Below, one piece after another: positions 23,829 through 47,480 of a stretch of 64,000 nucleotides of DNA; position 1 is the first letter of the stretch; each line of letters opens with the position of its first letter. The stretch is from Gammaproteobacteria bacterium (GTDB lineage Bacteria; Pseudomonadota; Gammaproteobacteria; 21-64-14). Below the pieces are notes generated by a model. That model was given only the letters and a program-made list of their open reading frames with translations, had not been told where the DNA came from and did no database searches. The position numbers were made by a program, and so were the translations under genes. The DNA lies in NCBI GenBank assembly GCA_027013145.1, contig JALUXX010000011.1, positions 62,001-126,000 of the forward strand, read 5' to 3'.

Positions 23829-24527
23829 ATGAGCCGACGCAAACCGGCGGTCCGGGTCCGACTCGACGACACGGGAATCGGCGAGTTGTCGCCGGAGGAC
23901 ATCCGCATCATTCTGCGCGGCGCTGATGACCTCGTCACGCTCGGCGGCCGCTCCGCGCTCGCCCGGCTGCTCAAAGGCTCGAAGGACAAGCGGCTGCGCG
24001 AGCGGGGTCTCGACGCCTCGCCGGCGTACGGCGCGCTCCGGGACCTCTCGATCGAGGAGATCACGGCGCGCATCGACCGCCTGATCCTGCGGGGCTATCT
24101 GCGGCTCGAATACGACGGGCGCTTCCCGCTGCTCGCCTTCACGCCGAAGGGCTGGGCGATCGAGCGCGAGACCTTCACGGCGGAATGGCTCGCAAAGATC
24201 GACCGCTCACTCGAAGGCACGGGCGATCCCGTCACGCCCGACGATCTCGCGCCCCTCAACCGCGAGGTCCTTTTTGAGTTGCTGGATCGTATGGCGGCGA
24301 GCGGAAACCGCGGATACATCGCGTTCCTCGACGCCTGGGCGCCCCACGCCGTGAAAAAGGTCCGCAAGCGCATCCACCACGTGCGAACGCTGCTCCAACG
24401 GACCGAACGACCGCCCCCGACCATGCCGACCCCGGAGACTCGTAGCCCGGATGCAGGCCGCAGGCCGGAATCCGGGGATCGCGGTGCCGGGAGAAAAGCC
24501 GCTACATCTGCCCTATCCTACTCGTAG
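23829..24527 (+). CDS. RQC-like winged-helix DNA-binding protein (RQC-minor type)
   Basis: About 232 residues. The middle part (SPEDIRIILRGADDLVTLGGRSALARLLKGSKD, then DLSIEEITARIDRLILRGYLRLEYD and FPLLAFTPKGWAIERE) looks like the RQC winged helix of RecQ helicases without a helicase domain, as in the RQC-minor families. Likely binds DNA. The last 30 or so codons (from [14 protein letters not shown]) are not protein-like: they are translated from the first copies of the repeat array that begins at 24441, which also supplies the stop codon. The original C-terminus has therefore been replaced or extended. Confidence 0.65.
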   Translation: MSRRKPAVRVRLDDTGIGELSPEDIRIILRGADDLVTLGGRSALARLLKGSKDKRLRERGLDASPAYGALRDLSIEEITARIDRLILRGYLRLEYDGRFPLLAFTPKGWAIERETFTAEWLAKIDRSLEGTGDPVTPDDLAPLNREVLFELLDRMAASGNRGYIAFLDAWAPHAVKKVRKRIHHVRTLLQRTERPPPTMPTPETRSPDAGRRPESGDRGAGRKAATSALSYS

Positions 24528-24730
24528 CCCGGATGCAGGCCAACGGCCGGAATCCGGGGAATCACGGCGCCGGAGGAGATTCCCGCCCCGGATTGCGCTG
24601 CGCTCCATCCGGGCTACATCTGCTCCATGCCACTCGTAGCCCGGATGCAGGCCGAAGGCCGGAATCCGGGGATCGCGGTGCCGGGAGAAAAGCCGCCCCC
24701 GGATTGCGCTGCGCTCCATCCGGACTACAT
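24441..24730. repeat. Three-copy GTAGCCCGGATG-family repeat array
   Basis: Copies start at 24441, 24523 and 24635. Full copies of about 95 bp run from CGTAGCCCGGATGCAGGCC to CATCCGGGCTACATC, so their ends are inverted repeats and the interior carries GGAATCCGGGGATCGCGGTG and CCCCGGATTGCGCTGCGCTC. The first copy has lost its second half. The array overlaps the 3' end of the RQC-like gene. Confidence 0.85.
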
Positions 24731-24781
24731 CTTCTGGCTGCACCTCGTACCGGGAACCGCAGTGCCGGGGCGGAAGCCCTG

Positions 24782-26143
24782 TCAGTCCCCGTCCTCATTC
24801 TCCGGCACGGAGACTACCTGCGAGAGCTTACGCCTCAGGGTCGAGCGGCTGATCCCCAGTATGCGCGCGGCCATCACCTGGTTCCCGTCGCAGGTCGTCA
24901 ACACGCGCTGGATATGCCAAAGCTCGACTTCGGACAACGGCGTCGCGACCGAGATCCCGCCACCTTCTGCCGGACCCGGGTCCGTCAACGCGACCGCGCC
25001 CGCATCGAGCACCGGGCCGCGGTGCAGTGCGAAGCTGCGTTCGATGACGTTCTGCAGTTGTCGGATGTTCCCCGGCCAATCGTAAAGCATCAACTTCTTG
25101 CGCGCCGCCGGCGTAAAATCCAGCGCCGGATCCCCAAGCCGTTTCCTCAGGTCGCAGAGGAAATGCTCCACCAGAGGAAGAATGTCTTCCCGCCGCTCTC
25201 TGAGCGGCGGTATGTGTATGGGGAGGACCTGCAACCGATAGAACAGGTCCTGTCTGAATACTCCCTCCTTGACCATCTCTTCGAGGTTCCGATTCGTCGC
25301 CGCGATTACGCGGACGTCGACCCGCGCGACCGTGTCGCCGCCCACCGGGCGCACGTCCCCGTTCTCCAGAACCCGTAGCAGCTTCGCCTGCAGCTTCGCG
25401 CCGATCTCCCCGATCTCGTCCAGGAACAAGGTGCCCGTGTCGGCCCTCTGGAAAAGCCCGTCCCGTGCCGTCGTAGCCCCGGTAAATGCGCCCTTAACGT
25501 GGCCGAACAGCTCCGAATCCAGCAGTTCGTCGGGAAGCGTAGCGCAGTTGATCGCAAGATAGGGCCCATCCTTGCGCGAACTCATTTCGTGGATCAGGCG
25601 CGCCACGACGTCCTTTCCGACCCCCGTCTCGCCGACCAACAGCACCGAGATATCTCGATCGCGAATCCGCTCCAGCACCACCAGAATTTCCCGCATCGCG
25701 GGACTCGCCGCCACCACCCGGCCCTGGGCCGCGCCCCCGGCGAGACGCCCTCTCAAGGCCTCGACCTCCCGCCGGAGCGATTGCGCCTCGAGGACCTTTT
25801 CGATCCGGAACCTGAGTTCCTCCAGATTGACGGGCTTGGTCAGGTAGTCATATGCGCCTCGTCGCATCGCTTCCACCGCGCTCTCGATCGAGCTGTAGGC
25901 CGTAAGCATGATGCATTCCGCCCCGCCGGACGAGCGTTCCTCCTCCAGCAGGTCGAGCCCGCTCTCCTCTCCTACGCGCAGATCGACGATGGCGACGTCC
26001 ACGCGGTTCTCCTTCAGCAGCGATCGTGAATCCGAGACGGTTCCGGCCTCAAGAACACGGTACCCGCGGGAGCGCAGGTAGATACCCAATGTGCGTCGAA
26101 TCGACGGCTCATCGTCGACGATCAAAATCGTATAGCCTTCCAT
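24782..26143 (-). CDS. Sigma54-dependent response regulator, NtrC family
   Basis: 453 residues: receiver domain (phospho-acceptor D54 in AIVDLRVGEESG), AAA+ domain with Walker A GETGVGKDV, the sigma54-contacting GAFTGA loop (HVKGAFTGATTA) and Walker B LFLDEIGEIG, then a Fis-type helix-turn-helix (MAARILGISRSTLRRKL). It should activate RpoN-dependent promoters from upstream sites. It is the last gene of the sulfur locus, 7 bp after its kinase. The only strong sigma54-type promoter seen upstream on the same strand is at the head of the porin/sulfur operon, its probable target. The arrangement recalls TspS-TspR of Acidithiobacillus. Confidence 0.93.
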   Translation of the reverse strand: MEGYTILIVDDEPSIRRTLGIYLRSRGYRVLEAGTVSDSRSLLKENRVDVAIVDLRVGEESGLDLLEEERSSGGAECIMLTAYSSIESAVEAMRRGAYDYLTKPVNLEELRFRIEKVLEAQSLRREVEALRGRLAGGAAQGRVVAASPAMREILVVLERIRDRDISVLLVGETGVGKDVVARLIHEMSSRKDGPYLAINCATLPDELLDSELFGHVKGAFTGATTARDGLFQRADTGTLFLDEIGEIGAKLQAKLLRVLENGDVRPVGGDTVARVDVRVIAATNRNLEEMVKEGVFRQDLFYRLQVLPIHIPPLRERREDILPLVEHFLCDLRKRLGDPALDFTPAARKKLMLYDWPGNIRQLQNVIERSFALHRGPVLDAGAVALTDPGPAEGGGISVATPLSEVELWHIQRVLTTCDGNQVMAARILGISRSTLRRKLSQVVSVPENEDGD

Positions 26144-26150
26144 CGCGCAC

Positions 26151-27590
26151 CTAGGAATAGGGAAGTGAGAAACGCACCGTAGTACCCTGGCCTACTTCGC
26201 TGGCCACATGCAACTCGGACCCGTGCATCATCAGGATGCGCGCCGCCAGCGCCAAGCCCAAGCCCGTACCCCCACGGCGCCCGGTCGTGAACGGGTGCGG
26301 GATGCGGTTCAGCAGTCTCTGCGGGATCCCCTTTCCGGTGTCGGCAATCTCAACATCTCCGGTTGCCGCTCCGCGACGGACTGCAACCCTTACGCGTCCG
26401 CCGTCAGGCATCGCCTCCAACGCATTGCGGATCAGATTCCAGAGCACCTGCTTGATCTGGTCACCGTCCACCGTAACGCGAACGGGGCTGTCGGGACATT
26501 CCACCTCAAACTGGATATCCGAACGATTCCTGGCATCGACCTGCGCCAGCGACGTGACCTGCCGCACCAGGCGGCACAGGTCAACCGGCGCGCGCTCCGG
26601 CGGGCGCATCTTTGCGAATCCCAGGAAGTCCTGTAATATCCGTTGCAGCCTTCCGGACTCCTCCAGGACGATTCCGCGCAGTTCGGCCCGTTCGGTATCG
26701 CCTACTTGGTCGCTGTCCAGTACCTGAACCGCGTTTACGATCGCCGTCAGCGGATTGCGAATCTCGTGTGCGATGCTCGCCGCGAATTCGCCTGCACAGG
26801 CAAGCTGTTCGACCCGTATACGCTTTTGGTGCTCCTGTTCGACCTGATGCGCGGAACGCGCCAGTGCCGCGACCATCTCGTTGAAAGCCGCCGCGAGCGT
26901 TCCGACCTCGTCTTTACTTCGGATATCCACGGATACGTCAGGATGACCTTCCGCGACTCTCTGTGCGGCCCCCGTGAGCAGGTGGAGATTTCGGGTGACG
27001 GTGAAGGACAGCGCCCATGCGGCCGCGCTCCCGATCAGCAACGCGGCGAGAATCATCAGCATTCCGTCGTTTCGGATCGCGGATATCTCGCGTTCCATCC
27101 GCGCGGTGGTCATGTGCAGGAACACCGTCCCGATCGTGTGTCCGGCGGCGCGTATGGGGCCCTCGAACTCCAGTGTATGGGAGGACTGCCCGCTATGAAT
27201 GCGCTCAGGCGGATCGGCCGGCGCGAATGTGCCGACCTCAGCGGCGTTCGTGCTGGCCAGCACCCGGTTCCGGACGTCGACGATCGCCGCGGAGAGGACC
27301 GCGGGCTGCCGTTTGATCCGTTCCATCACTTCGGCCAATGAGCCGAGGTTTTCGGACAATACGTCGTCGGCGGTGGATACGGCCATCAGGGCTACGAGAG
27401 AACGTCCGCGGTTCTGCAATTCGTTTCGGATCGTGTCGGACTGGTCGTGCACCGACATCGCTACGAAGGCGCCCATCAGGATGACGTGGACCGCGGCGAC
27501 GGAGAGAATCAGCCGGAAACGCAGGGTCGAGCGAAAGGCCGGCCGGCGTGCAGTTCCGGTCACTCGTGCCGTTGGGTGATCAGGCGACAC
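26151..27590 (-). CDS. Sensor histidine kinase, HAMP-containing
   Basis: 479 residues. Transmembrane helix 1 (about 28-48), a periplasmic sensor domain (about 49-175), helix 2 (LMILAALLIGSAAAWALSF), a HAMP linker with DEVGTLAAAFNEMV, then HisKA with the phospho-His in SIAHEIRNPLTAIV and an HATPase domain (LWNLIRNALEAMPDG, GGTGLGLALA). Partner of the adjacent NtrC-family regulator. The PhnD-like binding-protein gene lies 20 bp upstream in the same direction, so the kinase may read a ligand-loaded binding protein. Confidence 0.92.
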   Translation of the reverse strand: MSPDHPTARVTGTARRPAFRSTLRFRLILSVAAVHVILMGAFVAMSVHDQSDTIRNELQNRGRSLVALMAVSTADDVLSENLGSLAEVMERIKRQPAVLSAAIVDVRNRVLASTNAAEVGTFAPADPPERIHSGQSSHTLEFEGPIRAAGHTIGTVFLHMTTARMEREISAIRNDGMLMILAALLIGSAAAWALSFTVTRNLHLLTGAAQRVAEGHPDVSVDIRSKDEVGTLAAAFNEMVAALARSAHQVEQEHQKRIRVEQLACAGEFAASIAHEIRNPLTAIVNAVQVLDSDQVGDTERAELRGIVLEESGRLQRILQDFLGFAKMRPPERAPVDLCRLVRQVTSLAQVDARNRSDIQFEVECPDSPVRVTVDGDQIKQVLWNLIRNALEAMPDGGRVRVAVRRGAATGDVEIADTGKGIPQRLLNRIPHPFTTGRRGGTGLGLALAARILMMHGSELHVASEVGQGTTVRFSLPYS

Positions 27591-27610
27591 AGTTACCCCC
27601 CATACGACGG

Positions 27611-28489
27611 TTATGGGCGCACCCGGGAGTAGGTGGCGTTGGAGGCCGCGGCGAAACCATACGGAAAGTGGAGCGCCCTCAATACCCTTTTCCCGCCAGG
27701 CACTCGAATCAGTGACAGCAGATAGTTCCGGAGAAGTTGACGATCCTTTCGGGGCATAGTCTCGGAGACGGCGATCGCCATTTGCGGCTGAGGAGGAGTA
27801 CGCGCAATGACGCGAAGTTCGGACCTGACAGACGGAGAAACGGCCCGTAACGCGGGGGGCCAGGTCCCCCCCAGGTCCACAAGGCCGGAAGCGACCGCGA
27901 GGAGCACCGAATTCTGCGATCCGAAGTATCGGACCTTGAAATCCCTGGCGACGTCGAATCCAATGCTCTTCAGGTACCGGCGGACCATCACGGTGGCGGC
28001 GTAGGCCTGCGGATCCGGGAAGCCGATGGCTAGTCGTTTCCTGACGAGCCCCGGGGCGAGGCGATGAAGCGGGCTCGCCTTGCGCACGACGACAATCCCG
28101 ACGAACGGCTCCTTGGCGACCCGGGCGATGGCGCGATAACCGTAGGGTTCGGCGCGCCGGAACAGCAGCGGATTCAGATACAGGATATCGTACTCGTGCC
28201 TGCGGACACGACTCATGTACACGCGGAAATTGGGGGCGGTCACAAACTCGACCCGGCGGTGGAGCGCCTTGGCCATTCCCGCCGTGAGCGGAATGAACAT
28301 TCGCGCGAGCTGTACGGGACTCTCCAGGGGTAGGACGCCGAATCGCAGGAACGGCTTCGGGGTGGCGGCCGTTGCGGATGCACCGATCGCCCCGAAAACG
28401 ACCAGCGACAGGAACAGGATGACCGCGCGCGCACGCCCCCGTCGTACAGTCGTCTCACGCAGCGTTTGCAACCCGGCGTCGGGGCCCAT
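27611..28489 (-). CDS. PhnD-like periplasmic binding protein
   Basis: About 292 residues. The start at 28489 (MGPDAGLQTL) places a hydrophobic export segment, VILFLSLVVFGAIGASATAA, near residues 23-42; the open frame upstream of it has no family likeness. The mature protein matches the PhnD/transferrin-fold group: FLRFGVLPLESPVQLARMF, YDILYLNPLLFRRAEPYGY, FVGIVVVRKASPL, YFGSQNSVLLAVASGLVDLGG. No transporter genes accompany it; instead a sensor kinase gene follows directly. It is therefore probably a sensory accessory that binds a sulfur oxyanion or similar ligand. The ligand is not known. Confidence 0.8.
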   Translation of the reverse strand: MGPDAGLQTLRETTVRRGRARAVILFLSLVVFGAIGASATAATPKPFLRFGVLPLESPVQLARMFIPLTAGMAKALHRRVEFVTAPNFRVYMSRVRRHEYDILYLNPLLFRRAEPYGYRAIARVAKEPFVGIVVVRKASPLHRLAPGLVRKRLAIGFPDPQAYAATVMVRRYLKSIGFDVARDFKVRYFGSQNSVLLAVASGLVDLGGTWPPALRAVSPSVRSELRVIARTPPQPQMAIAVSETMPRKDRQLLRNYLLSLIRVPGGKRVLRALHFPYGFAAASNATYSRVRP

Positions 28490-28688
28490 CGAGTACAACC
28501 TGGCATGCGACGCCCTGCGGTCAGGCGCATCCCGGCCCCGGTTACAGGGGCGGTCGCCGGTATCGTCCACGCTCGCGGCCGACTTCGACCCGCGAGCCCG
28601 CAACGACGCCGGGCGCGACAATCGATAGGCCCGATCCGGCGCATGGGTACTATAGCACGGCCAAATTCCCATCTGGACCCTCGGAAAT

Positions 28689-29300
28689 TCAGTGGGGCGC
28701 CGGGTGCGCGGGCCGGTGCGGGGGCCCGCAGCCGCGAAAGAAATCCGCGAACGCGGCTAGCTCGGCAGGCGAGAAAGGGTTTTCGTATCTCGTGAAGCGG
28801 GTGCCGTGGATCCCATCGATGAGCCTCGCGGCGAACTCGCGCGCACGCAGCCGACGCGCCCAGCGGAACAGGTCCGGGGCGGGCCGCGGGGCGCGCAAAT
28901 CGGGATAGGCGTGGCAACCCCGACACAGTTGCCGGTAGGTCCGACCGGCCCAGCGTAGCTGCCACCGCGGCGCCCTGCAGCCGGACAGCGCCGCCGCGTC
29001 GAGGGGAAAGGACGCCCCGAGTTCGCGTAACCGCGCGAGCGCGGGGTCGTAGCGGCGCGCCACGAACTCCTTGCGTGTCGCCAACAGGGTGTGTACGACT
29101 TGGGCTTCGCACGCCGGCACATCCTCCAGGTAGGCCCGCGCCGTCAGCGGGAGTACAGCCAGTTCGCTTTCAACCTCGCGGAACACCCCGGTCCGATGCC
29201 GGCCGAACCAGCCTCGCCCGGACAATGCGTGCGCGAGATTGTCCGCGGTGACTTCGAGGAGGGCGGCGAAGGTCCTTCTCCGCCGGCCGGTCCGCAGCAA
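28689..29300 (-). CDS. Haem c-motif protein (CxxCH)
   Basis: A protein of about 200 residues with a single CRGCH haem-attachment motif near the C-terminus (RQLCRGCHAYPDLRAP), followed by an amphipathic region ending PFSPAELAAFADFFRGC that resembles the C-terminal helix of class I cytochromes c. The start is uncertain: TTG at 29300 is offered, a CTG overlapping the rhodanese stop is an alternative. No signal peptide is visible from either, which is unusual for a c-type cytochrome. The place at the end of the rhodanese/DsrE run suggests a link to sulfur-compound electron transfer. Confidence 0.5.
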   Translation of the reverse strand: MLRTGRRRRTFAALLEVTADNLAHALSGRGWFGRHRTGVFREVESELAVLPLTARAYLEDVPACEAQVVHTLLATRKEFVARRYDPALARLRELGASFPLDAAALSGCRAPRWQLRWAGRTYRQLCRGCHAYPDLRAPRPAPDLFRWARRLRAREFAARLIDGIHGTRFTRYENPFSPAELAAFADFFRGCGPPHRPAHPAPH

Positions 29301-29386
29301 TGGTGCGCCGTTGCAGGCGGTCGCAGGGGTCGGCGGCGGCGCGCCGCCAACGCGCGCGCCGCCCGACCTCTGCGCCGGGGATCCGC

Positions 29387-30343
29387 TCAGGGGATCTTCA
29401 CCCTCGCAAGCACCGGGAGTTTTGGGTTCCGGGACCACTGCGCCATGGATCCGTCGTAGACCTTCACGTCCTTGTTCTTGAGGATCTGTGAACTCACGAA
29501 CCAGCCCAGCGAGGCCCAGTGACCGGTATTGCAATAGGTGATCTGCGGGCCGGTCGTGGGGACGCCGGCATAGCGGTAGAGGGCGAGGTACTGCTTCGGG
29601 CTGCGGAACGTTCCCCCGTCGTTCACGGTCAGCCACCCCTGGGGCAGGCTGCGGGCCCCCGGAATCGCACCTGCGCGCTTGTCCATCGGCGGTTTTACGA
29701 CGCCCAGAAACTGATCCGTGGGTCGGTTGTCTACCAGGACGGCATCGTGCGTCTTTACGGCTTTTTCGACCTGGGCCTCGGTCGCCAGGTAGGCCGGATC
29801 GAGATGGGCGACGAATGTCTTCGCGCTACGGGTATATTTCCCTCTGCGAATCGGCAGCTTGGCCTTTACATAGGCCGCATACCCGCCGTTCATGATCGAG
29901 ACGTCGTTGTCGCCGAGGACCTTGAAAGTCCAAAACACGCGCGTCGCGCTGCCGGTGTCCAGGGCGTTGGTCCCCGCGGAGTAGATCACTACGTGAGTAT
30001 GGTTCCCGATCCCCAACCCGCCGATCAGCTTTTCGAGCTGGGCGACGGGGGCCATCATCCCGACCACCCCGTCCTTCTTGACGCGCCAGCCGGCGGTCTT
30101 GTAGTTGCTGTAGACCGCGCACGGCACATGTCCAGCCAGGTAGGTATAGTAATTCCCGCCGCCGCCCACGGGACTGCGAACGTCGATGACGGCAACGCCG
30201 GGCTTGCAGGAATTGCGGGCCACCCATTGCGGCGAAACGAGCGGCAGCGCCGCCGCGCCCAGTGCGATGCCGCAGCCGGCGCCGATCAGAGCGGCTGCAG
30301 CAATCACAGCCGCCGGAAGCGTCAATCGGAAGTCACGTTTCAT
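29387..30343 (-). CDS. Exported thiosulfate sulfurtransferase (tandem rhodanese)
   Basis: 318 residues with an N-terminal signal segment (LPAAVIAAAALIGAGCGIALG) and two rhodanese domains. The first (VIDVRSPVGGGGNYY) is the non-catalytic one. The second has the active-site cysteine in ITYCNTGHWASLGWF, and the CRIPGA-type lead (KRAGAIPGARSLP). It should move sulfane sulfur from thiosulfate or a related donor outside the inner membrane. It lies in the middle of the sulfur operon, near a second rhodanese-like gene that lacks the cysteine. Identification is firm; the donor is inferred. Confidence 0.88.
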   Translation of the reverse strand: MKRDFRLTLPAAVIAAAALIGAGCGIALGAAALPLVSPQWVARNSCKPGVAVIDVRSPVGGGGNYYTYLAGHVPCAVYSNYKTAGWRVKKDGVVGMMAPVAQLEKLIGGLGIGNHTHVVIYSAGTNALDTGSATRVFWTFKVLGDNDVSIMNGGYAAYVKAKLPIRRGKYTRSAKTFVAHLDPAYLATEAQVEKAVKTHDAVLVDNRPTDQFLGVVKPPMDKRAGAIPGARSLPQGWLTVNDGGTFRSPKQYLALYRYAGVPTTGPQITYCNTGHWASLGWFVSSQILKNKDVKVYDGSMAQWSRNPKLPVLARVKIP

Positions 30344-30368
30344 CGTGCTCTCCTCCTGCCTTGTTGAA

Positions 30369-30557
30369 CTAGACCGTGAACACGCGATCGGATCGCGCGA
30401 TCACCTGAACCAACTCTTCGCACATTCGCTCGTCGAGCCCGCCGTCCGAAGTGAAGTCGTAGGTGTACACGTAGTCCATCGGATAGAAATAGTTAAGGGC
30501 GTCCTCGACCGTTTTTCGATCCGGAAACAGCCCGGTCCTGATGACGGTTATGTTCAT
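30369..30557 (-). CDS. Small conserved-looking protein, 62 residues
   Basis: Opens MNITVIRTGLFPDRKTVEDA and contains an aromatic run (NYFYPMDYVYTYDFTSD) and one cysteine (DERMCEELVQV). I do not recognise a family. It is soluble with no membrane segment. Spacing of 34 bp from the DsrE-like gene before it and 25 bp to the rhodanese gene after it argues for a real gene of the sulfur operon. Confidence 0.6.
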   Translation of the reverse strand: MNITVIRTGLFPDRKTVEDALNYFYPMDYVYTYDFTSDGGLDERMCEELVQVIARSDRVFTV

Positions 30558-30591
30558 GTTTCCGATCCTTGCCTCTGTATCATCGGTGCTG

Positions 30592-30888
30592 TCATATACT
30601 CAGGGTAAAATCCGCTTCCGCCAGCATCTCGGCGAGCCTCGAAACCCCGATGGACTCCAACTGATCGGACTCCGGGACCGTGGTCACCGGGACGATGCCG
30701 GCCAGCTCGAGCATCTCCGCCTGTTCGGCCACTTCATCGGTCTCCTCCACCGCCCGGTCCATCAGCACCAGGCGGACCTGATGCCCGAAGACCGTGACGC
30801 CGCTCGCCACACGCATGGCCTCGGCATGATCGCGCCGACCGAGGACGACGATCGTCTTAATGCTTCCTGAATCGCTATCGGACACCAC
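30592..30888 (-). CDS. DsrE/DsrF-like small protein
   Basis: 98 residues with a DsrE-type alpha/beta layout: strand KTIVVLGRRDHAEAMRVASG, strand QVRLVLMDRAV, a helix with DEVAEQAEMLELAGI, and a final LAEMLAEADFTLSI. No cysteine is present, so it cannot carry persulfide itself; it may be the structural partner of the cysteine-containing DsrE-like protein encoded just upstream. Together with TusA and rhodanese genes it points to a DsrEF/Tus-like relay. Confidence 0.6.
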   Translation of the reverse strand: MVSDSDSGSIKTIVVLGRRDHAEAMRVASGVTVFGHQVRLVLMDRAVEETDEVAEQAEMLELAGIVPVTTVPESDQLESIGVSRLAEMLAEADFTLSI

Positions 30889-30934
30889 GGGCTCCTTTTG
30901 AAAGAAATTCCGGTTTCGAACGGCGACCGGCCGT

Positions 30935-31225
30935 CTACAGGCTGATCACCTTTTCCGCTTTCGACAGCATCGCGCTCAACTCCGTCTGGCTCCCCACGGC
31001 GACGGGGCACGTGGTGCCGTCCATAAACCGATCCCAGGAATGACCGCACACAGTCGCCGGCTGTGCCCGGCAAGCGAGTTCCCGGGCCCGCGCGTCGCCG
31101 AGCACACGGACGCCGTCGTCGGTGAAGAAGCACGCCCAGGATTGTCCCAGTCGCTCGCACGCCGAGGTAATCGCACAGAAGACGGGCCCGCTTTCTGGAT
31201 GCGACACGACAAACAGCAGCTTCAT
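30935..31225 (-). CDS. DsrE-like protein with cysteines
   Basis: About 96 residues from MKLLFVVSHPESGPVF (start 31225, four bases after the stop of the upstream gene). The first strand and the glycine turn fit the DsrE superfamily. Cysteines occur in FCAITSACERL, SWACFF, ELACRAQ, TVCGHSW and TTCPVAVG, so it is rich in possible persulfide carriers. Probably a sulfur-relay subunit acting with TusA and the rhodanese. The exact subfamily (DsrE, DsrF, DsrE2) is not clear. Confidence 0.65.
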   Translation of the reverse strand: MKLLFVVSHPESGPVFCAITSACERLGQSWACFFTDDGVRVLGDARARELACRAQPATVCGHSWDRFMDGTTCPVAVGSQTELSAMLSKAEKVISL

Positions 31226-31229
31226 CGGG

Positions 31230-32237
31230 TTAGCCCTTTCGTCGGACGGCCCTGACAACCAGGGCCGCTGTTATCACCAGCACCGCAGCCGCAATCAGCC
31301 CCGTGTATGCAATGGCGTCCAGGGGTTCGTCGCTGTGTCCCGCATCGGTATAGAGACGACCGCAATCGTCCGGTCCCGCGCACCGGCTCGCCATGTCGAT
31401 CGGGTCACCCGCGCGCCCGGACCATTGAACCCACCCCCCGGGATAGACGTCGGCATCGGCATGCAGGCCGGCGGTCAGCGCCGTGAAATACGCGATGCCG
31501 GTGTATGGGTTCGCGGCGTACGCGATCGCGCCGCGATCGATCGCCGGGAGGCTGCGGCCGCGCCTTTCCATTGCCTCCACCCGGTCGAGCGGCAGCGAGG
31601 ACGCCCCCGGGATGTGCCCCCCGACAGTACCGCGGACGTGGGCGCCCCAAAAGCGGCGGTCGGAACGCCCGTCCAGAATCTCAGGCGGAGATGGATGGTA
31701 GAGGCGATTGAGAAGCTCCCCGCGAAACACCAAACGGCGCAGGCGCGGGCGCCCGGCGTACAGGGGGGCGGCCAGCTCCGATCTCGGGCGGCCGGGGCCG
31801 GCGAGCGCGGGATGGCGGCCAATGAATCCGGTGACGGGCGCGCGGACGATCCGGATCTGCCGTTGACCGCACAGATACAACACGCCTGCCACGAAATCCC
31901 GCCGCAGGCGATGATCGCCGACGACGATGGCAGTTTCTCCGGCGTGTATCCCGCTCGTTCCCAGCACCCAGAAGATCTGCCTAAACGATGCGAGCGCCCC
32001 GCGGTAGCCGAGAAAGTCCCGGGGACCGAGGCAGATCGCCCCTCTTAGCGATGCCGACTCGCACTGCTTTCTCGGGCGAGTGTCCACGATGACCTCCCCG
32101 GGCCCGGGCGGGTGCTCCACCGCCCCGACGGCGGTGTATTCCAGTACGCCCGGGGGCGCCGCACCCCCGTAGCCCACGCAGGCGATAACCAGCAACAGGG
32201 CCGTCAGCACGGACTCCGACCTGTACGCCACGGCCAC
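31230..32237 (-). CDS. Membrane-anchored tandem rhodanese lacking catalytic cysteine
   Basis: 335 residues: signal segment (VLTALLLVIACVGYGGAA), two rhodanese-like domains (EVIVDTRPRKQCES... and ...EILDGRSDRRFWGAHVRGTVGGHIPGASSLP), and a C-terminal transmembrane helix (IAYTGLIAAAVLVITAALVV) followed by basic residues. Where an active rhodanese has its cysteine loop, this protein reads AIAYAANPYTGIAYF, so the nucleophile is replaced by Ala. It shares the GGW-W/MAQW element with its active neighbour. It may be a binding or docking partner at the membrane. Its stop lies 4 bp before the DsrE-like start. Confidence 0.75.
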   Translation of the reverse strand: MAVAYRSESVLTALLLVIACVGYGGAAPPGVLEYTAVGAVEHPPGPGEVIVDTRPRKQCESASLRGAICLGPRDFLGYRGALASFRQIFWVLGTSGIHAGETAIVVGDHRLRRDFVAGVLYLCGQRQIRIVRAPVTGFIGRHPALAGPGRPRSELAAPLYAGRPRLRRLVFRGELLNRLYHPSPPEILDGRSDRRFWGAHVRGTVGGHIPGASSLPLDRVEAMERRGRSLPAIDRGAIAYAANPYTGIAYFTALTAGLHADADVYPGGWVQWSGRAGDPIDMASRCAGPDDCGRLYTDAGHSDEPLDAIAYTGLIAAAVLVITAALVVRAVRRKG

Positions 32238-32243
32238 GAACGC

Positions 32244-32528
32244 TCAGCAACCGCCGAAATGCATCGCCCCGCTCGCTGCGGCTCCGCCCGCGGGCGCCCG
32301 CACCGGAGGAGGATTCTCCAGATAGGTCTGCATCAGCTGCTGCGCGGTGACCGAACCGTAGCGGGCACCGAGGTTCACCGGCTGTTGATACGCCGCCAGG
32401 GGCACCGGGACGGCCTGGGTCGACACGCTCCCCGCAGGGGACGCGACGAAATGGAATCCCGCCACGGCCACCGCGAGGAACAGCCCCAATGAAGTCCCTA
32501 TGAATGCCAGCACTCTTGCGTTGTTCAT
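32244..32528 (-). CDS. Small membrane-anchored protein
   Basis: About 94 residues from MNNARVLAF. One N-terminal hydrophobic segment (IGTSLGLFLAVAVAGFHFVA) is followed by a Pro/Ala-rich extracytoplasmic part with YQQPVNLGARYGSVTAQQLM and a terminal FGGC. I recognise no family. It sits between another small membrane protein and the cysteine-less rhodanese, with gaps of 19 and 6 bp, so it is part of the same transcript and perhaps of a membrane complex with them. Confidence 0.6.
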   Translation of the reverse strand: MNNARVLAFIGTSLGLFLAVAVAGFHFVASPAGSVSTQAVPVPLAAYQQPVNLGARYGSVTAQQLMQTYLENPPPVRAPAGGAAASGAMHFGGC

Positions 32529-32547
32529 TGCAGTCACCTCTCCTCGC

Positions 32548-32919
32548 CTACTCCCCGAAGGGGTCCTTCAGGAACGCCAGGTAAACGATGTAAAAGGTCA
32601 GAAAGAACATGCCGATCTGAATGCCCGTCGACAACGATATCGGTGTCGCGGCCTGCTTCTCCTTGCCCGCAGCCGAATGTTTGTTCGCAACACGGACGAA
32701 ATTTTGCGCCAGATCGTTCAGCGCCACGGGTTGCTGCGTGACCGGATTGATTATCGGTGGCGCATTCAGGGGTACGCCGTAACGCGTCTGCCAGAGCGCC
32801 GGGGGTTTTTCCAGGACGATATAGGCTACCGACCCCGCTGTGACCAGCATCGCCACCAGCACCCAGATCACCATCTGGACCTTCCCCGAAATCCGGAAGC
32901 CTTTCCTACCGCTACTCAT
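32548..32919 (-). CDS. Small two-helix membrane protein
   Basis: About 123 residues. The start at 32919 has a GGAGG site five bases upstream. Two transmembrane helices are visible: VIWVLVAMLVTAGSVAYIVL near the N-terminus and IQIGMFFLTFYIVYLAFL at the C-terminus. The loop between contains WQTRYGVPLNAPPIINPVTQ and probably lies outside the cytoplasmic membrane. No family recognised. Located between tusA-like and the next small membrane gene. Confidence 0.6.
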   Translation of the reverse strand: MSSGRKGFRISGKVQMVIWVLVAMLVTAGSVAYIVLEKPPALWQTRYGVPLNAPPIINPVTQQPVALNDLAQNFVRVANKHSAAGKEKQAATPISLSTGIQIGMFFLTFYIVYLAFLKDPFGE

Positions 32920-32958
32920 CATTGCCTCCAACTGCCACCGCTCGCGCAGCGGCAGGCT

Positions 32959-33276
32959 TCAAACCCGCTCCACGATCACGGTCCAGCCGCGCTCGCCCTT
33001 GACCGTGCCGAGATGGCGCCCGCCGAGGTCTGGAATCATCGAGTGCACCGCCTCCAGAGAGGTGGGGTTGTCGATCTTCACGGCGATGACTGCGCCATGT
33101 GACGCCGCTGCAAGCGCCTTCTTCGTCAGGAGCTGGGGCCGCGGGCACGAGTCGCCCAGGCAATTTACCGTCGTCGTCACCGATACCGCGCGACCGTCTT
33201 CGAGCTGCATGGTCACAGGTTCCGCGGGCGACTTGTCCACGCCCCGGTCGGCATTGCGTTTTCCGAAGAGTCCCAT
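32959..33276 (-). CDS. TusA-family sulfur carrier protein
   Basis: 105 residues from MGLFGKRNADRG. The TusA/SirA signature is clear: VNCLGDSCPRPQLLTKKAL, with the persulfide-carrying cysteine in CPRP, then VIAVKIDNPTSLEAVHSMI. An N-terminal extension of about 38 residues precedes the core, longer than plain TusA (about 80 residues). In sulfur oxidisers TusA passes sulfur among rhodanese, DsrE and Hdr-type systems. It lies between the YeeE/YedE gene and the small membrane proteins. Confidence 0.85.
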   Translation of the reverse strand: MGLFGKRNADRGVDKSPAEPVTMQLEDGRAVSVTTTVNCLGDSCPRPQLLTKKALAAASHGAVIAVKIDNPTSLEAVHSMIPDLGGRHLGTVKGERGWTVIVERV

Positions 33277-33334
33277 CGTGTCGATCCTCCGTCGCAAGCA
33301 TCGGCCCGAAGCGCAACCTGCCCGGGCCTCACCT

Positions 33335-34123
33335 TCATTTCGCCGCCGCCTTGCCCTTACGGCCGGGGGTGGACGGTGTCCGGGGTCGGGCGGCCGAAGG
33401 CCTCGAGTCTGCGGAGATCTGTGGCCCCTCGACGGCGGCACCCGCCGGTATCGGTTCCAAGCCGGACGGCCGGGACATACCTGCGGCGGCCGTCGGCGTT
33501 CTGACCCCGGCACCCGAGCGATGCGGATCCGGCGCCTGGGAACGGCGGCGCTCCCGGCGCACAATGGCGTAATACATCGCCCCCAGTATCGCCGCCTGCA
33601 CGAGACCGAACACGATGGCGGGAATACCGGTGGCCTTTTGCAGCGTTTGTGCGTTCGCCACACCGAATTGCAAAGTGTGGAGATTTGCGTGCGTAGACAT
33701 CGTCGCGGGGGCCGGCGGCCAGTGGAATGCCGACCAGAAGAGGGAAAACAGAAACATTCCGATGAAGGTCCAGACCAATGCCCAGATCGCTCCAACGTTT
33801 CCCTCGCCCGACTTCACCCAGGTGGAAACCGTACACGCCCCGGCAAGAACCATACCGATTCCGAAAAGGAACAGACCGATGAACTGATTGAATCCGACCT
33901 CGAACTCGATCGGGTGCCCGCCGCCGATCGACATGAATGCGGTAAACCCGACGGTATTTACGATCATCAGGGCCAAGAGCGCTTTTGTATTGCGGTAGTT
34001 CTTGAACAACATCGCGTCGCGCAACGCGGCGGTGTTGCAGAACCGCGACCGCTGCATGAGGAACCCCACGACCGCGGCGAAGATGAAGGATGCGAGTAGC
34101 TGTGTGAGCGAATTGTGTTCCAT
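33335..34123 (-). CDS. YeeE/YedE-family transporter, half protein A
   Basis: 262 residues with four or five membrane helices. The family motifs are FLMQRSRFCNTAALRDAM near the N-terminus and GIGMVLAGACTVSTWVKSGEGN, with the conserved cysteines used by thiosulfate importers of this family. The C-terminal 60 or so residues are Pro/Ala/Arg-rich and look disordered. With the next gene upstream it makes a split YeeE/YedE pair, each supplying half of what is one chain in YeeE. Likely imports thiosulfate or a related sulfur species. Confidence 0.82.
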   Translation of the reverse strand: MEHNSLTQLLASFIFAAVVGFLMQRSRFCNTAALRDAMLFKNYRNTKALLALMIVNTVGFTAFMSIGGGHPIEFEVGFNQFIGLFLFGIGMVLAGACTVSTWVKSGEGNVGAIWALVWTFIGMFLFSLFWSAFHWPPAPATMSTHANLHTLQFGVANAQTLQKATGIPAIVFGLVQAAILGAMYYAIVRRERRRSQAPDPHRSGAGVRTPTAAAGMSRPSGLEPIPAGAAVEGPQISADSRPSAARPRTPSTPGRKGKAAAK

Positions 34124-34128
34124 CGGCG

Positions 34129-34620
34129 CTAGGACTCCAATACGCGTTTGTAGATCCAGGAACCGACCCAGGCACCGGGAATGATTCCGCTAACGGCGAG
34201 GTAACCCCCCAGATTCATCTGCGGGGTAACGGCGAAGAAGGTGCTTACGTTGCAGATGAACGCCAGCCGGATCCCGACCCCCATCAAAAAGCCGCCCGCG
34301 GTGATCATCAGCCATTCGTTCAGGTGCCGCGGGATCCGCCAGTAGAACTCCTTGGCGAGCACGGCTGCGACAAGCGCCCCGAAACCCATTCCCAGACTGA
34401 TATACATCTTCCAGTAGTAGAGGGTCGGCTTGAATACATGTACCCAAAACGGAATCCGGAAGAGCTTGTCTCCCATGACGGAGTGCGCAATCAATCCGGT
34501 GATCATCGTCTCGCCGCCACCGACCGTCCAGGCACCGACGACGAGGAACAGGAAGATATCCAGAAAGCCGACGATCACCATCGCAATCACGGGATCGAGG
34601 GGTTTTTTCAGCAATTCCAC
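34129..34620 (-). CDS. YeeE/YedE-family transporter, half protein B
   Basis: About 163 residues from the GTG at 34620, which has GGAG six bases upstream; the longer frame to 34704 is Arg-rich and unsupported. Membrane helices include MVIVGFLDIFLFLVVGAWTVGG, MGFGALVAAVLAKEF and ITAGGFLMGVGIRLAFICNVSTFF. The last carries the family's cysteine in FICNVSTFF, comparable to GACTVSTW of the partner. Five bases separate it from half A. Expected to act as a heterodimer in the inner membrane. Confidence 0.8.
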   Translation of the reverse strand: MELLKKPLDPVIAMVIVGFLDIFLFLVVGAWTVGGGETMITGLIAHSVMGDKLFRIPFWVHVFKPTLYYWKMYISLGMGFGALVAAVLAKEFYWRIPRHLNEWLMITAGGFLMGVGIRLAFICNVSTFFAVTPQMNLGGYLAVSGIIPGAWVGSWIYKRVLES

Positions 34621-34703
34621 TTTCCACTCCGATGATCTGCGCCCCGACGGGCCCCGCGTCGCAAGAAAGGGAGGCCGCCGTTGCGGCCTCCAACGTCCAC
34701 GCA

Positions 34704-35894
34704 CTACATGAGGGAGATTGAGAACGGCACACTGATTTCCATATTCACGCGGTTGTCGGAACGCTTACCGAATCCCGGGAAAGTGCGATGGTCGTACTCG
34801 AGCAGGTAGCGGACATGGTGGGATCCGAATACGGTTCCGACGACGCTCGTCATGTTCACGTAGTTGCCGACACTGGTGTCCGGCTGATAGCTGCTGTAGC
34901 GAACGACGGCCTCCAGCCACCGAACCGGACGATACCCGCCGGAAACGAACCAGCTCTGGGCTTTGAGGTTCGGGGCCGCGCCGGCCTGCTCGTCGTCGGC
35001 ATGCTGGTATTCACCCCAAATCCAGAAGCTGTCCTTCAGATAGTTTCCGTAACGGGCGTCGAGCGCGAACTTCGTGCGCCCAAGGTTCGTCCCGGCGACG
35101 GTCTCGGTGCCGGTCCAGACTCCGCCGGCAAGGCCGAAGGGGCCGTAACTTCCGCCCAGGTGGCCGATGAAGTCGCGCGCCCGGTTGGCGGCGGTCTGGC
35201 TCAGGCCGTTGCCGTTGAACCAGCCGGCTTCGTAGTCCCAGGAGCGCTTTCCGGCGACGAACTGGTTAAACGCCATTACCCCCATTTCGCGACCGGCGTT
35301 GATGGTGGAGTCCGACAGCCCCTCTTTGTAGAAAATGTTCACCGTTCCGTCGGTATAGTTGATCCAAGGCAGGCCGCCGGCACCGACGACGCCTTCCCAG
35401 GCGAACGGAACCAGCATCTGACCGATTTGCACGTGGACCTCGGGGATCTGGTTCAGCGTTACCGAGCCGTCCAGCAACCGCGCGCCGTGGAAGAACTTGG
35501 AAGACGGGCCTGACGGATTGGTCAGGTAGTCCAAGGTCGCGCCGTTGCGGGCGAACTCGGGGAGGAAATAGTAATTGATGTTCTTCGTCAGTTTTCCTCG
35601 CAGGCCGGGCCGGAAACGGTAAAAGAGCACGGTGGAGTGACCCGCGACCTGATCGTAGCTGTAGCCCGGCTGTATGATTCCGAAGATTCGCGCGGAAGGA
35701 CTGCGTTCAGTCGTGGGCTCGGTGCCGTATATCATCGGCCAGGCCTTCATCGGTGCCTCGTTCATGCTGGGAAGGTTGAACGAAGGGGTTGTGGCGGCGG
35801 AGGCTGTAACCGGGAAGGCGGTGAAGGCGGCGCATGCCGCCGCAGCGCATGCCGCAGAAAACCAACGTGCGCGACGCACGCTAATCTTGGTCAT
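34704..35894 (-). CDS. Outer-membrane porin (OprP-like)
   Basis: 396 residues. A signal peptide ends at TASA-ATTPS. The mature protein is made of alternating amphipathic strands rich in Gly and aromatic residues (FGIIQPGYSYDQ, GKLTKNINYYFLPEF, HVQIGQMLVPFAWEG, TKFALDARYG) and ends in the strand MEISVPFSISLM. The layout fits phosphate-selective porin O/P-type channels, which take up anions. As first gene of the sulfur operon it probably admits thiosulfate or another sulfur anion to the periplasm. A sigma54-type promoter lies about 95 bp upstream of its start. Confidence 0.8.
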   Translation of the reverse strand: MTKISVRRARWFSAACAAAACAAFTAFPVTASAATTPSFNLPSMNEAPMKAWPMIYGTEPTTERSPSARIFGIIQPGYSYDQVAGHSTVLFYRFRPGLRGKLTKNINYYFLPEFARNGATLDYLTNPSGPSSKFFHGARLLDGSVTLNQIPEVHVQIGQMLVPFAWEGVVGAGGLPWINYTDGTVNIFYKEGLSDSTINAGREMGVMAFNQFVAGKRSWDYEAGWFNGNGLSQTAANRARDFIGHLGGSYGPFGLAGGVWTGTETVAGTNLGRTKFALDARYGNYLKDSFWIWGEYQHADDEQAGAAPNLKAQSWFVSGGYRPVRWLEAVVRYSSYQPDTSVGNYVNMTSVVGTVFGSHHVRYLLEYDHRTFPGFGKRSDNRVNMEISVPFSISLM

Positions 35895-35989
35895 GGTCCT
35901 CTCCTCCGTTTCCGATTCTCTTTAGGGGTCGGGTGAGATCGACCCGTCGCAGCGGCGCACGAAGCCGGCGCGTCGCCTGTCGGAGACGA

Positions 35990-36005
35990 TGCATCGGCGA
36001 TGCCA
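35990..36005 (-). promoter_or_regulatory. Sigma54 (-24/-12) promoter of the sulfur operon
   Basis: On the minus strand TGGCATCGCCGATGCA keeps the invariant GG and GC dinucleotides 12 bp apart, with CA after the GG and A after the GC. The consensus is TGGCACG-N4-TTGCA. Transcription would start near 35979, leaving an 85-nt leader before the porin ATG at 35894. Confidence 0.6.
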
Positions 36006-36069
36006 AAATCCTGTTGCGTCGACAAATCAAGGCGATAGGAGTTGTTTGAGACCGAGGCTCACGTATCGG

Positions 36070-36119
36070 CTGTATTGATTTGATCCAGGCCGAGGGCCCG
36101 CTGTATCGATTTGAAACAG
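36070..36119. promoter_or_regulatory. Tandem upstream activator-type sites
   Basis: CTGTATTGATTTGATCCAG (36070-36088) and CTGTATCGATTTGAAACAG (36101-36119) match at 16 of 19 positions and are 31 bp apart, close to three helical turns. Each is a partial palindrome with CTG/CAG ends. They lie about 91-140 bp upstream of the predicted sigma54 start, where bacterial enhancer-binding proteins usually bind. Confidence 0.6.
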
Positions 36120-36345: not shown

Positions 36346-36720
36346 TCAGGCCGCTTCGGGCTCGGACGCCGGTGTCTCGCTGGCGGCGGTCACGACTTCC
36401 AGGGCACTGAGGGCCATGCCCCGAGGGCAGTTGCCCTCTCTCTCCGCGGCGCCGACCATCCTCGCCGCGAACAGAAGGTCGTTGGCAAGGTCGGGCTCTT
36501 CGAAGACCAATCTTGCGTGGACTACGTAGCAGTGTCCTTCGGAACAGCGTGCGCACGGCCCGCAGGGTGCGTACCCGGAACGGCCTCGCCAGTGCGCCGA
36601 GACGATATCGTCCAGACGGGACATCCAATTCGAGGGGCGGACCTTGTGTCCGGAGGGAGTGGTTGACGTAAAGACAATATAGGGATCTGCGACAGATGCA
36701 TCGTCGTCGCTGGTGTTCAT
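36346..36720 (-). CDS. DUF3579-like protein with four-cysteine cluster
   Basis: About 124 residues from MNTSDDDASV. The pattern YIVFTSTTPSGHKVRPSNWMSRLDD followed by an aromatic stretch and LVFEEPDLANDLLFAARMV resembles DUF3579 proteins (G-x-K-F-R-P-S-D-W-A-E-R-L and a C-terminal helix). In place of the usual central loop it has CGPCARCSEGHC, a C-x2-C-x2-C-x4-C cluster able to bind iron-sulfur or zinc. It is transcribed towards the sulfur operon but has its own upstream region with an FNR-type box. Function unknown; a redox role is inferred. Confidence 0.55.
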   Translation of the reverse strand: MNTSDDDASVADPYIVFTSTTPSGHKVRPSNWMSRLDDIVSAHWRGRSGYAPCGPCARCSEGHCYVVHARLVFEEPDLANDLLFAARMVGAAEREGNCPRGMALSALEVVTAASETPASEPEAA

Positions 36721-36941
36721 GGGGGGGCGCAATCTCCTGTAGGCCGATTCCAACGGGCCTCGCCCCTGGGTGTCGGCACACACTCAGGGACTACCTACGA
36801 CACGGTAGTTATCGTCACCGGGGCGTTGCTGTTTAGAAATGCGGTGTGCGCGCAAGTCGATTTGCACGCGGGCCGTGCTACCCGAGAGTTCGGGCGGTAG
36901 GTATCGCCGCAAGGCTGTGCTTCGATGACTCAGCGAGGAAG

Positions 36942-36982: not shown

Positions 36983-37353
36983 GAGTTCGTGCAATGCTCG
37001 CGTTCAGACAGGCGGCTGTCGCTTCGTGTAGTTTTCAAGCGACACGGCAGAAGATCGCTACGCGACAGTGGCCGTTCACCGGAGCCCTACGTCTTCAGTT
37101 GCACGATTGAATCGGTGCACGGTTGATGTGCGTGCAGTACTACTGCGTTGCCCTAACCTGAGTCGCTCAAGCGCTACGAGGTTCTTTCGAGCGCGGCTGT
37201 ATGGTCATGGGCTCCCGACCCGTGCGGCAGGATAGGGCAGAATCGCGTGGGGGCCCCGGAACGGTGCATTGGCATCCGAAGATGTTCCCCCCGTAACCTC
37301 GGCTTCCGGGTTGGGCCGCGATCCATCCGGGCCGCATCCTCGCGCGATATCCC

Positions 37354-37559
37354 GCAACCCGGATGCAGGCCGAAGGCCGGAATCCGGGAATCGCAGCGCC
37401 GGGAGAACGGCCGTCCCCCGGATTGCGCTTCGCTCCGTCCGGGCTACATCTTCGGACCGATGTCGTAGCCCGGATGCAGGCCAATGGCCGGAATCCGGGG
37501 AATCGCGGTCCCGGAGGAGATTCTCGCCCCGGATTTCGCTGCGCTCCATCCGGCTACAT
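37354..37559. repeat. Two GTAGCCCGGATG-family repeats
   Basis: One copy runs from about 37354 (AACCCGGATGCAGGCCGAAGG) to 37449 (CCGGGCTACATC) and a second from 37464 to 37559. A worn partial copy precedes them (about 37296-37350). They fill the space between the divergent FNR-box gene and the second binding-protein gene. Confidence 0.8.
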
Positions 37560-37730
37560 TTTTCAATGCGGAACGGGGAATAAGCGCGGCGCGCGACGCG
37601 TCTGAAACATGGGGGATCAAAGGTAGTTCCCGGAGCGGATCCGGGACCGTGGTTGTCGATCCCGGAATAATTTCGCCGTGCGGTGGGCCTTGTACCTCGC
37701 AATCCGCTACGCACGGCAAGGGGGAGGTTG

Positions 37731-38675
37731 GTGCCTGGGGGAACCGCCGCCGGACGAGCCGGGCGGGGGCTTGCGCAGGGATGCGGTCCGGCGGGTTGGG
37801 CACGCGGGCGCAGCGCTCGACCGTCCGCGTTCCGCCGATCCGCCGTGTTGTTCGCCTCCGTTTTGCTTGCGACCCTGAGCGCGTCCGCCGTTGGTGGGCA
37901 TGCGGGCACGCGCCAGCGGACACTTGTGTTCGGCTTTCTTCCCATCGTGAGCCCCGAGCGGCTGGTGCGACGCTTCGCGCCGCTGGTCGACTACCTCGCG
38001 CAGCGCCTCCATGTGGACATACGCATGGAGACGGCGCCTGACTTCGGCGCGTTCCTGCGCCGTACCCAGACGGAGCGCCGCTACGACATCCTGTTCACGG
38101 CGCCGCACTTCTACTATCTGGCCCAACATGCGGCGGGCTACCGGGCCCTGGTCCGCGTCGGGCGCCCCGGCATGCGGGCGGTGATCGTAGTGCCTAGGCG
38201 CAGCGCAATCCGTCGCTTGGCGGACCTTCGCGGGCGCCGACTGGCAACCACGGACCCCATGGCGCTCGCGACCGTACTGGTACGCCAGTCCTTGGTGCGG
38301 GGCGGCCTCGACCCCGATCGCGACCTGACGCTGGTCGCCACCCCCAGCCACAACGCATCCCTGCTCAGCGCCTACCAGGGCAGGACGGATGCGGCGGCGC
38401 TGATGCTGCCGCTGTTCCATCACGCCCCCGCCCGGATCGTGCGATCGATGCGCATCGTCGCCGAGACCGGCAGCAGCCCGCACATGCCGATCAGTGTGGC
38501 GCCGTGGATCGGCGCGGCCTTCGCCGCACGTTTGCGCTCAGTGCTGATGGAGATGCCAAGCACGGGGCGGGGCGGGAGGCTGCTGCGCAAACTCGACTGG
38601 CCCGCATTCGTACGCGTCGGGCCGCATGACTACGACGCGCTCGCGGCGATCGCACGCCAAGTGCATGGGGAGTAG
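37731..38675 (+). CDS. PhnD-like periplasmic binding protein (second copy)
   Basis: About 314 residues. The GTG at 37731 follows GGGGGAGG closely; the N-terminal region is long and basic before the hydrophobic export segment SAVLFASVLLATLSASAVG, so a later start is possible. The mature part matches the PhnD group: TLVFGFLPIVSPERLVRRFAPL, YDILFTAPHFYYLAQHAAGYRAL, RRLATTDPMALATVLVRQSL, HNASLLSAYQGRTDAAAL. Its stop is 3 bp before the kinase start, so it is again paired with a sensor kinase and not with transport genes. A TtrS-like sensing role, with the binding domain as a separate protein, is the best guess. Confidence 0.75.
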   Translation: MPGGTAAGRAGRGLAQGCGPAGWARGRSARPSAFRRSAVLFASVLLATLSASAVGGHAGTRQRTLVFGFLPIVSPERLVRRFAPLVDYLAQRLHVDIRMETAPDFGAFLRRTQTERRYDILFTAPHFYYLAQHAAGYRALVRVGRPGMRAVIVVPRRSAIRRLADLRGRRLATTDPMALATVLVRQSLVRGGLDPDRDLTLVATPSHNASLLSAYQGRTDAAALMLPLFHHAPARIVRSMRIVAETGSSPHMPISVAPWIGAAFAARLRSVLMEMPSTGRGGRLLRKLDWPAFVRVGPHDYDALAAIARQVHGE

Positions 38676-38678
38676 CCG

Positions 38679-46827: not shown

Positions 46828-47016
46828 CGGTCACCGGCCTCCCGCGCCGGCGGATGCCTTCGCGATCGACACCGACGTGGGTTCCGCGGGGGCCGCCGGG
46901 GCGGTCATGGCGCCGGTCGCGCCGCGCGGGCGGATTCCGGCGTGCGAGATGCCGCTCGCCACGGGAATTTCACCAGCACATGTTTCCATCCTGCTCGCCC
47001 CGGTTCCAACCGCCGG

Positions 47017-47466: not shown

Positions 47467-47480
47467 GTTCGCCCGCGCGG

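Follow-up and report, generated by a model that had tools for sequence, protein, structure and literature searches.

The 64,000-nucleotide stretch of gammaproteobacterial contig JALUXX010000011.1 analyzed here (the window, numbered from its first letter) contains a run of fifteen genes on the minus strand, beginning with a porin gene at 35894 and ending with the gene for an NtrC-type activator at 24782, with intergenic gaps of ~4 to 86 bases. The block at its center is probably an operon by which dissimilatory sulfur oxidizers import and relay sulfur. Comparison with related genomes gives good support for an operon under sigma54 control. The gene order and its conservation, the predicted promoter and enhancer, the key cysteine residues, and the rpoN gene, dsrB genes and sHdr set of the host can all be read from the sequence. 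Open reading frames and family searches reproduce the genes, order and strand given in a preliminary description of this DNA, and the transporter, TusA, rhodanese and DsrE-type families with their conserved cysteine residues support its proposal of a sulfur relay.

The block occurs in many other genomes. A scan with p123, a small membrane protein of the window, detected relatives in nine further genomes of the class, and the 20-kb surroundings carry the same block. A scan of the genome collection with a TusA alignment gave 80 loci. Profile searches then covered 90 loci, the window included, where many absences correspond to contig ends. A few loci are one contig reached twice (e.g. L043/L062, L045/L063 and L042/L094), which leaves a little over 80 distinct genomes. 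The core order is YeeE half, YeeE half, TusA, p123N, a 30-residue peptide, p97, rhodanese-1, DsrE-a, DsrE-b, p62, rhodanese-2 and cytochrome c, and it is nearly constant among the proteobacterial carriers, which include Sedimenticola, Thiobacillus, Sulfuriferula, SUP05, Magnetovibrio, Rhodobium and Maritimibacter. The YeeE halves were found at 86 and 88 of the 90 loci, p123N at 90, the 30-residue peptide at 87, p97 at 88, rhodanese-1 at 86, DsrE-a and DsrE-b each at 82, p62 at 78, rhodanese-2 at 86 and the cytochrome at 79; TusA is present at all 90 by construction, since the scans were seeded with it. The preliminary description could not match the combination to a named system and suggested a search for the same gene order elsewhere. 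That search succeeded, and the block is widespread. No paper naming the twelve-gene block was found in the open-licence PMC literature, which is weak evidence of absence.

The porin (34704–35894; PF07396, weak at 25.5 bits, Porin_O_P-like) has homologs at only four of the 90 loci (the window, L087, L116 and L119) and stands at the head in the window alone. The claim that the set is complete, from uptake at the outer membrane through to sensing, is therefore not supported as stated; the porin is a local addition of unproven role. A trio encoding a PhnD-type protein, a kinase and an NtrC-type regulator adjoins ~30 clusters, mostly upstream of the first YeeE half; it is downstream in the window, L087 and L088, and divergent in L097, L116 and L119. 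A tree built from TusA and both YeeE halves places the window, with its long branch, beside L060, L061 and L040 (100/99 support). Presence of the trio is strongly clustered on this tree, requiring 8 changes compared with 22.8 in shuffles. In the lineage of the window the porin has evidently entered at the head and the trio has moved to the tail. A locus from the same genus (L048, genome G001) has a very divergent block without the trio, with a good sigma54 site and a p123N homolog that ends in cysteine.

We searched for promoters using a sigma54 weight matrix built from general knowledge, counting sites that scored ≥11 ahead of the first YeeE half. For the window the matrix gave no site directly before the YeeE half; the site precedes the porin instead. 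It is a predicted −24/−12 element on the minus strand (TGGCATCGCCGATGCA, 35990–36005) that reads TTGGCATCGCCGATGCA, with GG at 36004–36003 and GC at 35992–35991, placing the expected start at ~35979. Nothing else within 350 bases upstream of the porin scores higher; its 12.0 bits are equaled in 0.5% of random 350-base locus pieces. A site is present at 25 of 28 trio-bearing loci and at 10 of the remaining 56 (Fisher P = 2e-10, uncorrected for kinship or the few duplicate contigs). These 10 exceptions belong mainly to an acid-habitat clade that has a different repeat, TCACCATCnTGGTGA, ahead of the promoter, and include contigs cut before the trio. The repeat is palindromic; it was noted upstream of YeeE at L087, L095, L114, L133, L041, L116 and L119, mostly as a pair preceding the sigma54 site, and is perhaps the site of a different activator in the acid-habitat clade.

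A potential enhancer was found by learning a motif from the non-coding sequence of 18 other loci, with the window left out (score 170 versus 48–54 for shuffled sets). The learned palindrome reads CTGTaTCAnnnTGAtACAG, and the two highest-scoring matches to it within the 64-kb window both lie before the predicted promoter on the minus strand. Site 1 (CTGTTTCAAATCGATACAG, 36101–36119) scores 19.6 bits and is centered 131 bases before the expected start; site 2 (CTGGATCAAATCAATACAG, 36070–36088) scores 15.5 bits and is centered 100 bases before it, a spacing of 31 bases. A pattern made from both sites, allowing ≤3 mismatches, has one further match in the 3.28-Mb genome. rpoN is present once in the host. 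The block and the promoter plus enhancer recur in independent genomes, so both exceed chance, and we reject a chance origin of the promoter on the evidence of its counterparts in other genomes. The preliminary placement of a −24/−12 element at the head thus stands, with counterparts in 25 of the 28 trio-bearing clusters, and the same association together with the two predicted enhancer sites supports an activator encoded within the unit it controls. That the whole run is a single transcript we infer from the sequence. An RHH_4 protein is encoded near 17 trio-less loci (e.g. L136:8352–8732) and perhaps acts as regulator there. It often replaces the trio nearby, and regulation would therefore have been exchanged between lineages.

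There could be two or more transcripts, with the sigma54 promoter serving the core and the tail trio having a promoter of its own. This would be compatible with a sulfur-relay operon, and is a possible arrangement, though we consider it doubtful. Most relatives have the trio on the upstream side of the sigma54 promoter, where it is transcribed separately from the core. In the window, however, the gaps are short, with 16 bases between the cytochrome and PhnD-type genes and 7–20 bases between the genes of the trio. Moreover, the motif scan of the 64-kb window found no copy of the enhancer at the trio; an ordinary promoter may lie inside the cytochrome gene.

The membrane part of the block begins with two half-size YeeE/YedE proteins. 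The first gene (34129–34620, GTG start at 34620) encodes the C-terminal half (PmpA-like; PF04143 positions 167–310), which has one cysteine that is invariant in 100% of 86 homologs. The second (33335–34123) encodes the N-terminal half (PmpB-like; PF04143 positions 1–161), with two near-invariant cysteine residues (column values 0.98 and 0.99). The pair is thus a split YeeE of the PmpA/PmpB type, with conserved cysteine in each half. TusA (32959–33276; PF01206 and alignment) carries its nearly invariant cysteine in the motif GDSCPRPQ. p123 (32548–32919, ATG at 32919) is a two-helix membrane protein of 123 residues, and comparison with relatives shows it to be fused from two genes that stand apart there, encoding ~70 residues and the 30-residue single-helix peptide. 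A weak Pfam match of p123 to CopD falls below the cut-off and was not accepted. p97 (32244–32528, ATG at 32528; 94 residues) has one N-terminal membrane helix and ends in Gly-Cys in 88 of 88 homologs, as FGGC, IGGC, FQGC, VGGC and similar.

The two rhodaneses both match PF00581. Rhodanese-1 (31230–32237) has a hydrophobic N-terminus and a C-terminal membrane anchor, features shared by 63 and 55 of 85 homologs respectively. It had been described as a cysteine-less rhodanese. This is correct for the rhodanese loop but not for the whole protein, where two other cysteine residues are conserved in 99% of the 85 homologs. Rhodanese-2 (29387–30343, matched in two stretches) is predicted to be exported, and its catalytic cysteine (YCNTGHWAS) is present in 97% of homologs. 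The last gene of the core (28689–29300, start uncertain) encodes a monoheme cytochrome c-like protein. Its heme motif is CRGCH, with the CxxCH cysteine residues conserved in 97% of 80 homologs. No signal peptide is recognizable in the open reading frame of the window copy (28689–29390); 72 of the 80 homologs have a hydrophobic N-terminus.

Three small proteins lie between the rhodaneses. DsrE-a (30935–31225) is a cytoplasmic protein with a weak DsrE family match, and Cys60 is invariant in the alignment (99% of 83 homologs), as expected for a DsrE-type protein. An AlphaFold2 model (pLDDT 97.3) has a DsrE fold; its best meaningful matches in Foldseek are of the DsrE/DsrF family with E = 0.01–0.09, including the DsrE/DsrF-like protein 2qs7 with probability 1.00 and E = 0.01. 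DsrE-b (30592–30888) is a conserved cytoplasmic protein by alignment, at best weakly DsrF-like. p62 (30369–30557, ATG at 30557) occupies the DsrH position in the gene order, and its AlphaFold2 model (pLDDT 86.6) is a small soluble alpha/beta protein. Profile searches of DsrE-a and p62 against the PDB sequences gave nothing significant, and p123, p97, DsrE-b and p62 match no Pfam or NCBIfam family above cut-off. The family models matched in those searches included Sulf_transp (twice, for the two halves), TusA, Rhodanese (twice) and Phosphonate-bd.

The genomic context connects the block with dissimilatory sulfur oxidation. dsrB was found above the curated cut-off in 44 of 52 cluster genomes, and in a class sample of 369 genomes it is present in 15 of 18 that bear the cluster and 102 of 351 others (P = 5e-6, uncorrected for phylogeny). 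The host has two full-length dsrB genes (G000:C53:20046–21050 and G000:C9:48518–49519), together with an sHdr-type locus on contig C37, where genes for HdrB-like and HdrC-like proteins, an HdrA-like flavoprotein, DsrE and a GcvH-like LbpA are adjacent. Five of the seven dsrB-less carriers checked have paired HdrB-like genes at the spacing of the host sHdr set, from which these carriers would own an sHdr-type set.

We therefore propose a path from the periplasm to the cytoplasm, in which the substrate, the direction, the role of p97 and the formation of complexes are inferred. In the periplasm the active rhodanese-2 and the membrane-anchored rhodanese-1 would load a carrier with sulfane sulfur derived from thiosulfate, polythionate or persulfide. 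The sulfur would pass through the membrane by the two half-size YeeE proteins with p123 and p97, the latter most likely acting as a tethered sulfur arm by virtue of its conserved C-terminal Gly-Cys. On the inside TusA would accept the sulfur and transfer it to a DsrE-type complex of DsrE-a, DsrE-b and p62, and from there to rDsr or sHdr. Control would be AioXSR-like. The PhnD-type protein would sense an oxyanion, leading the kinase to phosphorylate the NtrC-type activator, which would bind the two upstream palindromes and fire the sigma54 promoter. With the trio moved to the tail of the operon, the activator would raise its own level.

A number of observations weigh against this scheme. The cluster is found in just 15 of the 117 dsrB-bearing genomes of the sample (~13%) and is thus no requirement for rDsr; dsrB is itself missing from some carriers, and the co-occurrence counts are not corrected for phylogeny. 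The charge distribution of p97 leaves its topology unsettled, and its cysteine may face the cytoplasm. DsrE-b matches DsrF (2hy5_B) only weakly with E = 0.94, and the fold search with p62 gave no significant match, which leaves the two as candidate DsrF and DsrH proteins. ArrX and AioX, counterparts of the PhnD-type sensor, bind arsenic oxyanions. The block may instead export sulfur, or take up thiosulfate for assimilation.

The latter is one form of an alternative in which the block serves thiosulfate assimilation, or sulfane-sulfur homeostasis or detoxification, with no role in energy metabolism, as for TsuAB and PmpAB. The YeeE halves match TsuA models in part, and TsuA–TsuB (YeeE–YeeD) likewise combines a transporter with a TusA-like partner that has a cysteine. 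PmpAB is split in the same way (PMC11582611), and PmpA/PmpB and SoxT share the half-size YeeE pair with conserved cysteine (PMC11582611); SoxT is proposed to import sulfane sulfur from SoxYZ (PMC11582611). TsuA, however, is a single-chain YeeE in a two-gene system of assimilatory thiosulfate uptake, while the present block has many more genes, including those for exported rhodaneses and a cytochrome, is associated with dsrB and has a dedicated oxyanion-type sensor. SoxT works with ArsR-type repressors and the block with sigma54, and a block with p97, p123 and rhodanese has not been described for PmpAB or SoxT. An assimilatory or homeostatic function is thus unlikely.

Among described sets the block comes nearest to YTD, which has recently been redefined as yeeE-tusA-dsrEFH type II (PMC13293266) and is found in cable bacteria and Desulfobacterota (PMC13293266, PMC13047784). 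In the cable-bacteria set sulfur passes in vitro from TusA to DsrEFH type II and on to DsrC (PMC13293266). Both have adjacent genes for a YeeE-family transporter, TusA and three small proteins, one of them DsrE-like with a single conserved cysteine; in the window this adjacency of YeeE-family, tusA and dsrE-like genes is retained with YeeE as two halves. The window block differs in having the split YeeE, two exported rhodaneses, p123, the 30-residue peptide, p97 and cytochrome c as constant members, and in being proteobacterial and mostly found with dsrB; type II DsrEFH was compared by description. The likeness raises the alternative that the block is a module of sulfur disproportionation or sulfur reduction, working in the reductive or anaerobic direction as in the original reading of YTD, with which it has YeeE, TusA and DsrE-type genes in common and which is a proposed marker of disproportionation (PMC8780430; PMC12998232). 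Yet the block includes two exported rhodaneses and cytochrome c. Its carriers include Sedimenticola, Thiobacillus, Sulfuriferula, SUP05 and Maritimibacter, which are generally known as sulfur oxidizers. Even for YTD the link to disproportionation is disputed (PMC13293266), and for the block we consider a module of this type quite improbable. The Thioalkalivibrio thiocyanate-oxidation cluster was also considered for its sigma54 pair and CopD, the family weakly matched by p123, and was rejected, as its paper mentions no YeeE, TusA or DsrE.

The regulatory trio consists of the PhnD-type periplasmic binding protein, or X component (27611–28672, PF12974; the true start may be further in), a sensor histidine kinase of HAMP-HisKA-HATPase organization (26151–27590) and an NtrC-type sigma54 activator (24782–26143) with receiver, Sigma54_activat and Fis helix-turn-helix domains and the GAFTGA motif. 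These adjacent genes have the layout of AioXSR and ArrXSR, and the predicted upstream site and RpoN promoter at the target operon extend the likeness, as a conserved upstream site also mediates the control of an RpoN promoter by AioX, AioS and AioR (PMC5908839). The window trio differs in being attached to a sulfur block and not to arsenic enzymes. TspS–TspR of Acidithiobacillus, suggested earlier as the nearest parallel, is similarly a sigma54-dependent two-component system of sulfur metabolism. Its reported enhancer TGTCCCAAATGGGACA (PMC6335251) resembles CTGTaTCAnnnTGAtACAG. As a whole, however, the layout resembles AioXSR, while TspS–TspR controls sox-II and no PhnD-type component is reported there (PMC6335251). 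The trio might be a sensor of arsenite, arsenate or thioarsenate in an operon handling arsenic–sulfur species, in keeping with ArrX as the nearest PDB match of the PhnD-type protein (E = 5e-13) and with the arsenic oxyanions sensed by the XSR systems known so far (PMC5908839), but this is very improbable given that arsenite oxidase is missing in 20 of 22 trio-bearing genomes tested, no arsenic gene was seen in the block and the PhnD set has no conserved cysteine. Because those 20 genomes lack arsenite oxidase, a sulfur oxyanion is the likelier ligand.

Tentatively, the sulfur-import and relay operon may be a dedicated sulfane-sulfur translocation machine for rDsr or sHdr, with p97 as a new kind of membrane-tethered carrier and the 30-residue peptide as a membrane subunit; its trio would be the first of the XSR sensors with a link to sulfur. 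A fixed block of twelve genes spanning periplasm, membrane and cytoplasm, mostly found with dsrB, provides defined genes to delete and proteins to trap in sulfur-bound form. Through the block an XSR-type system for sensing oxyanions would be tied to sulfur oxidation, with a precisely defined candidate enhancer. The block also gives a clear genetic context to tiny, conserved membrane proteins hitherto unexplained.

Some neighboring features may be mentioned. A weakly DUF3579-like protein is encoded upstream of the promoter (36346–36783, minus strand). Further upstream, and divergent from the operon, are genes for another PhnD-type protein, a kinase of the HisKA_3 family and a response regulator of the LuxR type (37683–41082, plus strand). 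They are followed by the gene for a SoxB-like protein (41305–43443, plus strand) that scores 155.9 bits, well below the SoxB cut-off of 550, and is not counted as SoxB. An intergenic repeat recurs at ~24450–24750, 37200–37580 and 46900–47500, with chance translations of RNPGI..PGE and CSPDGAQRNPG.

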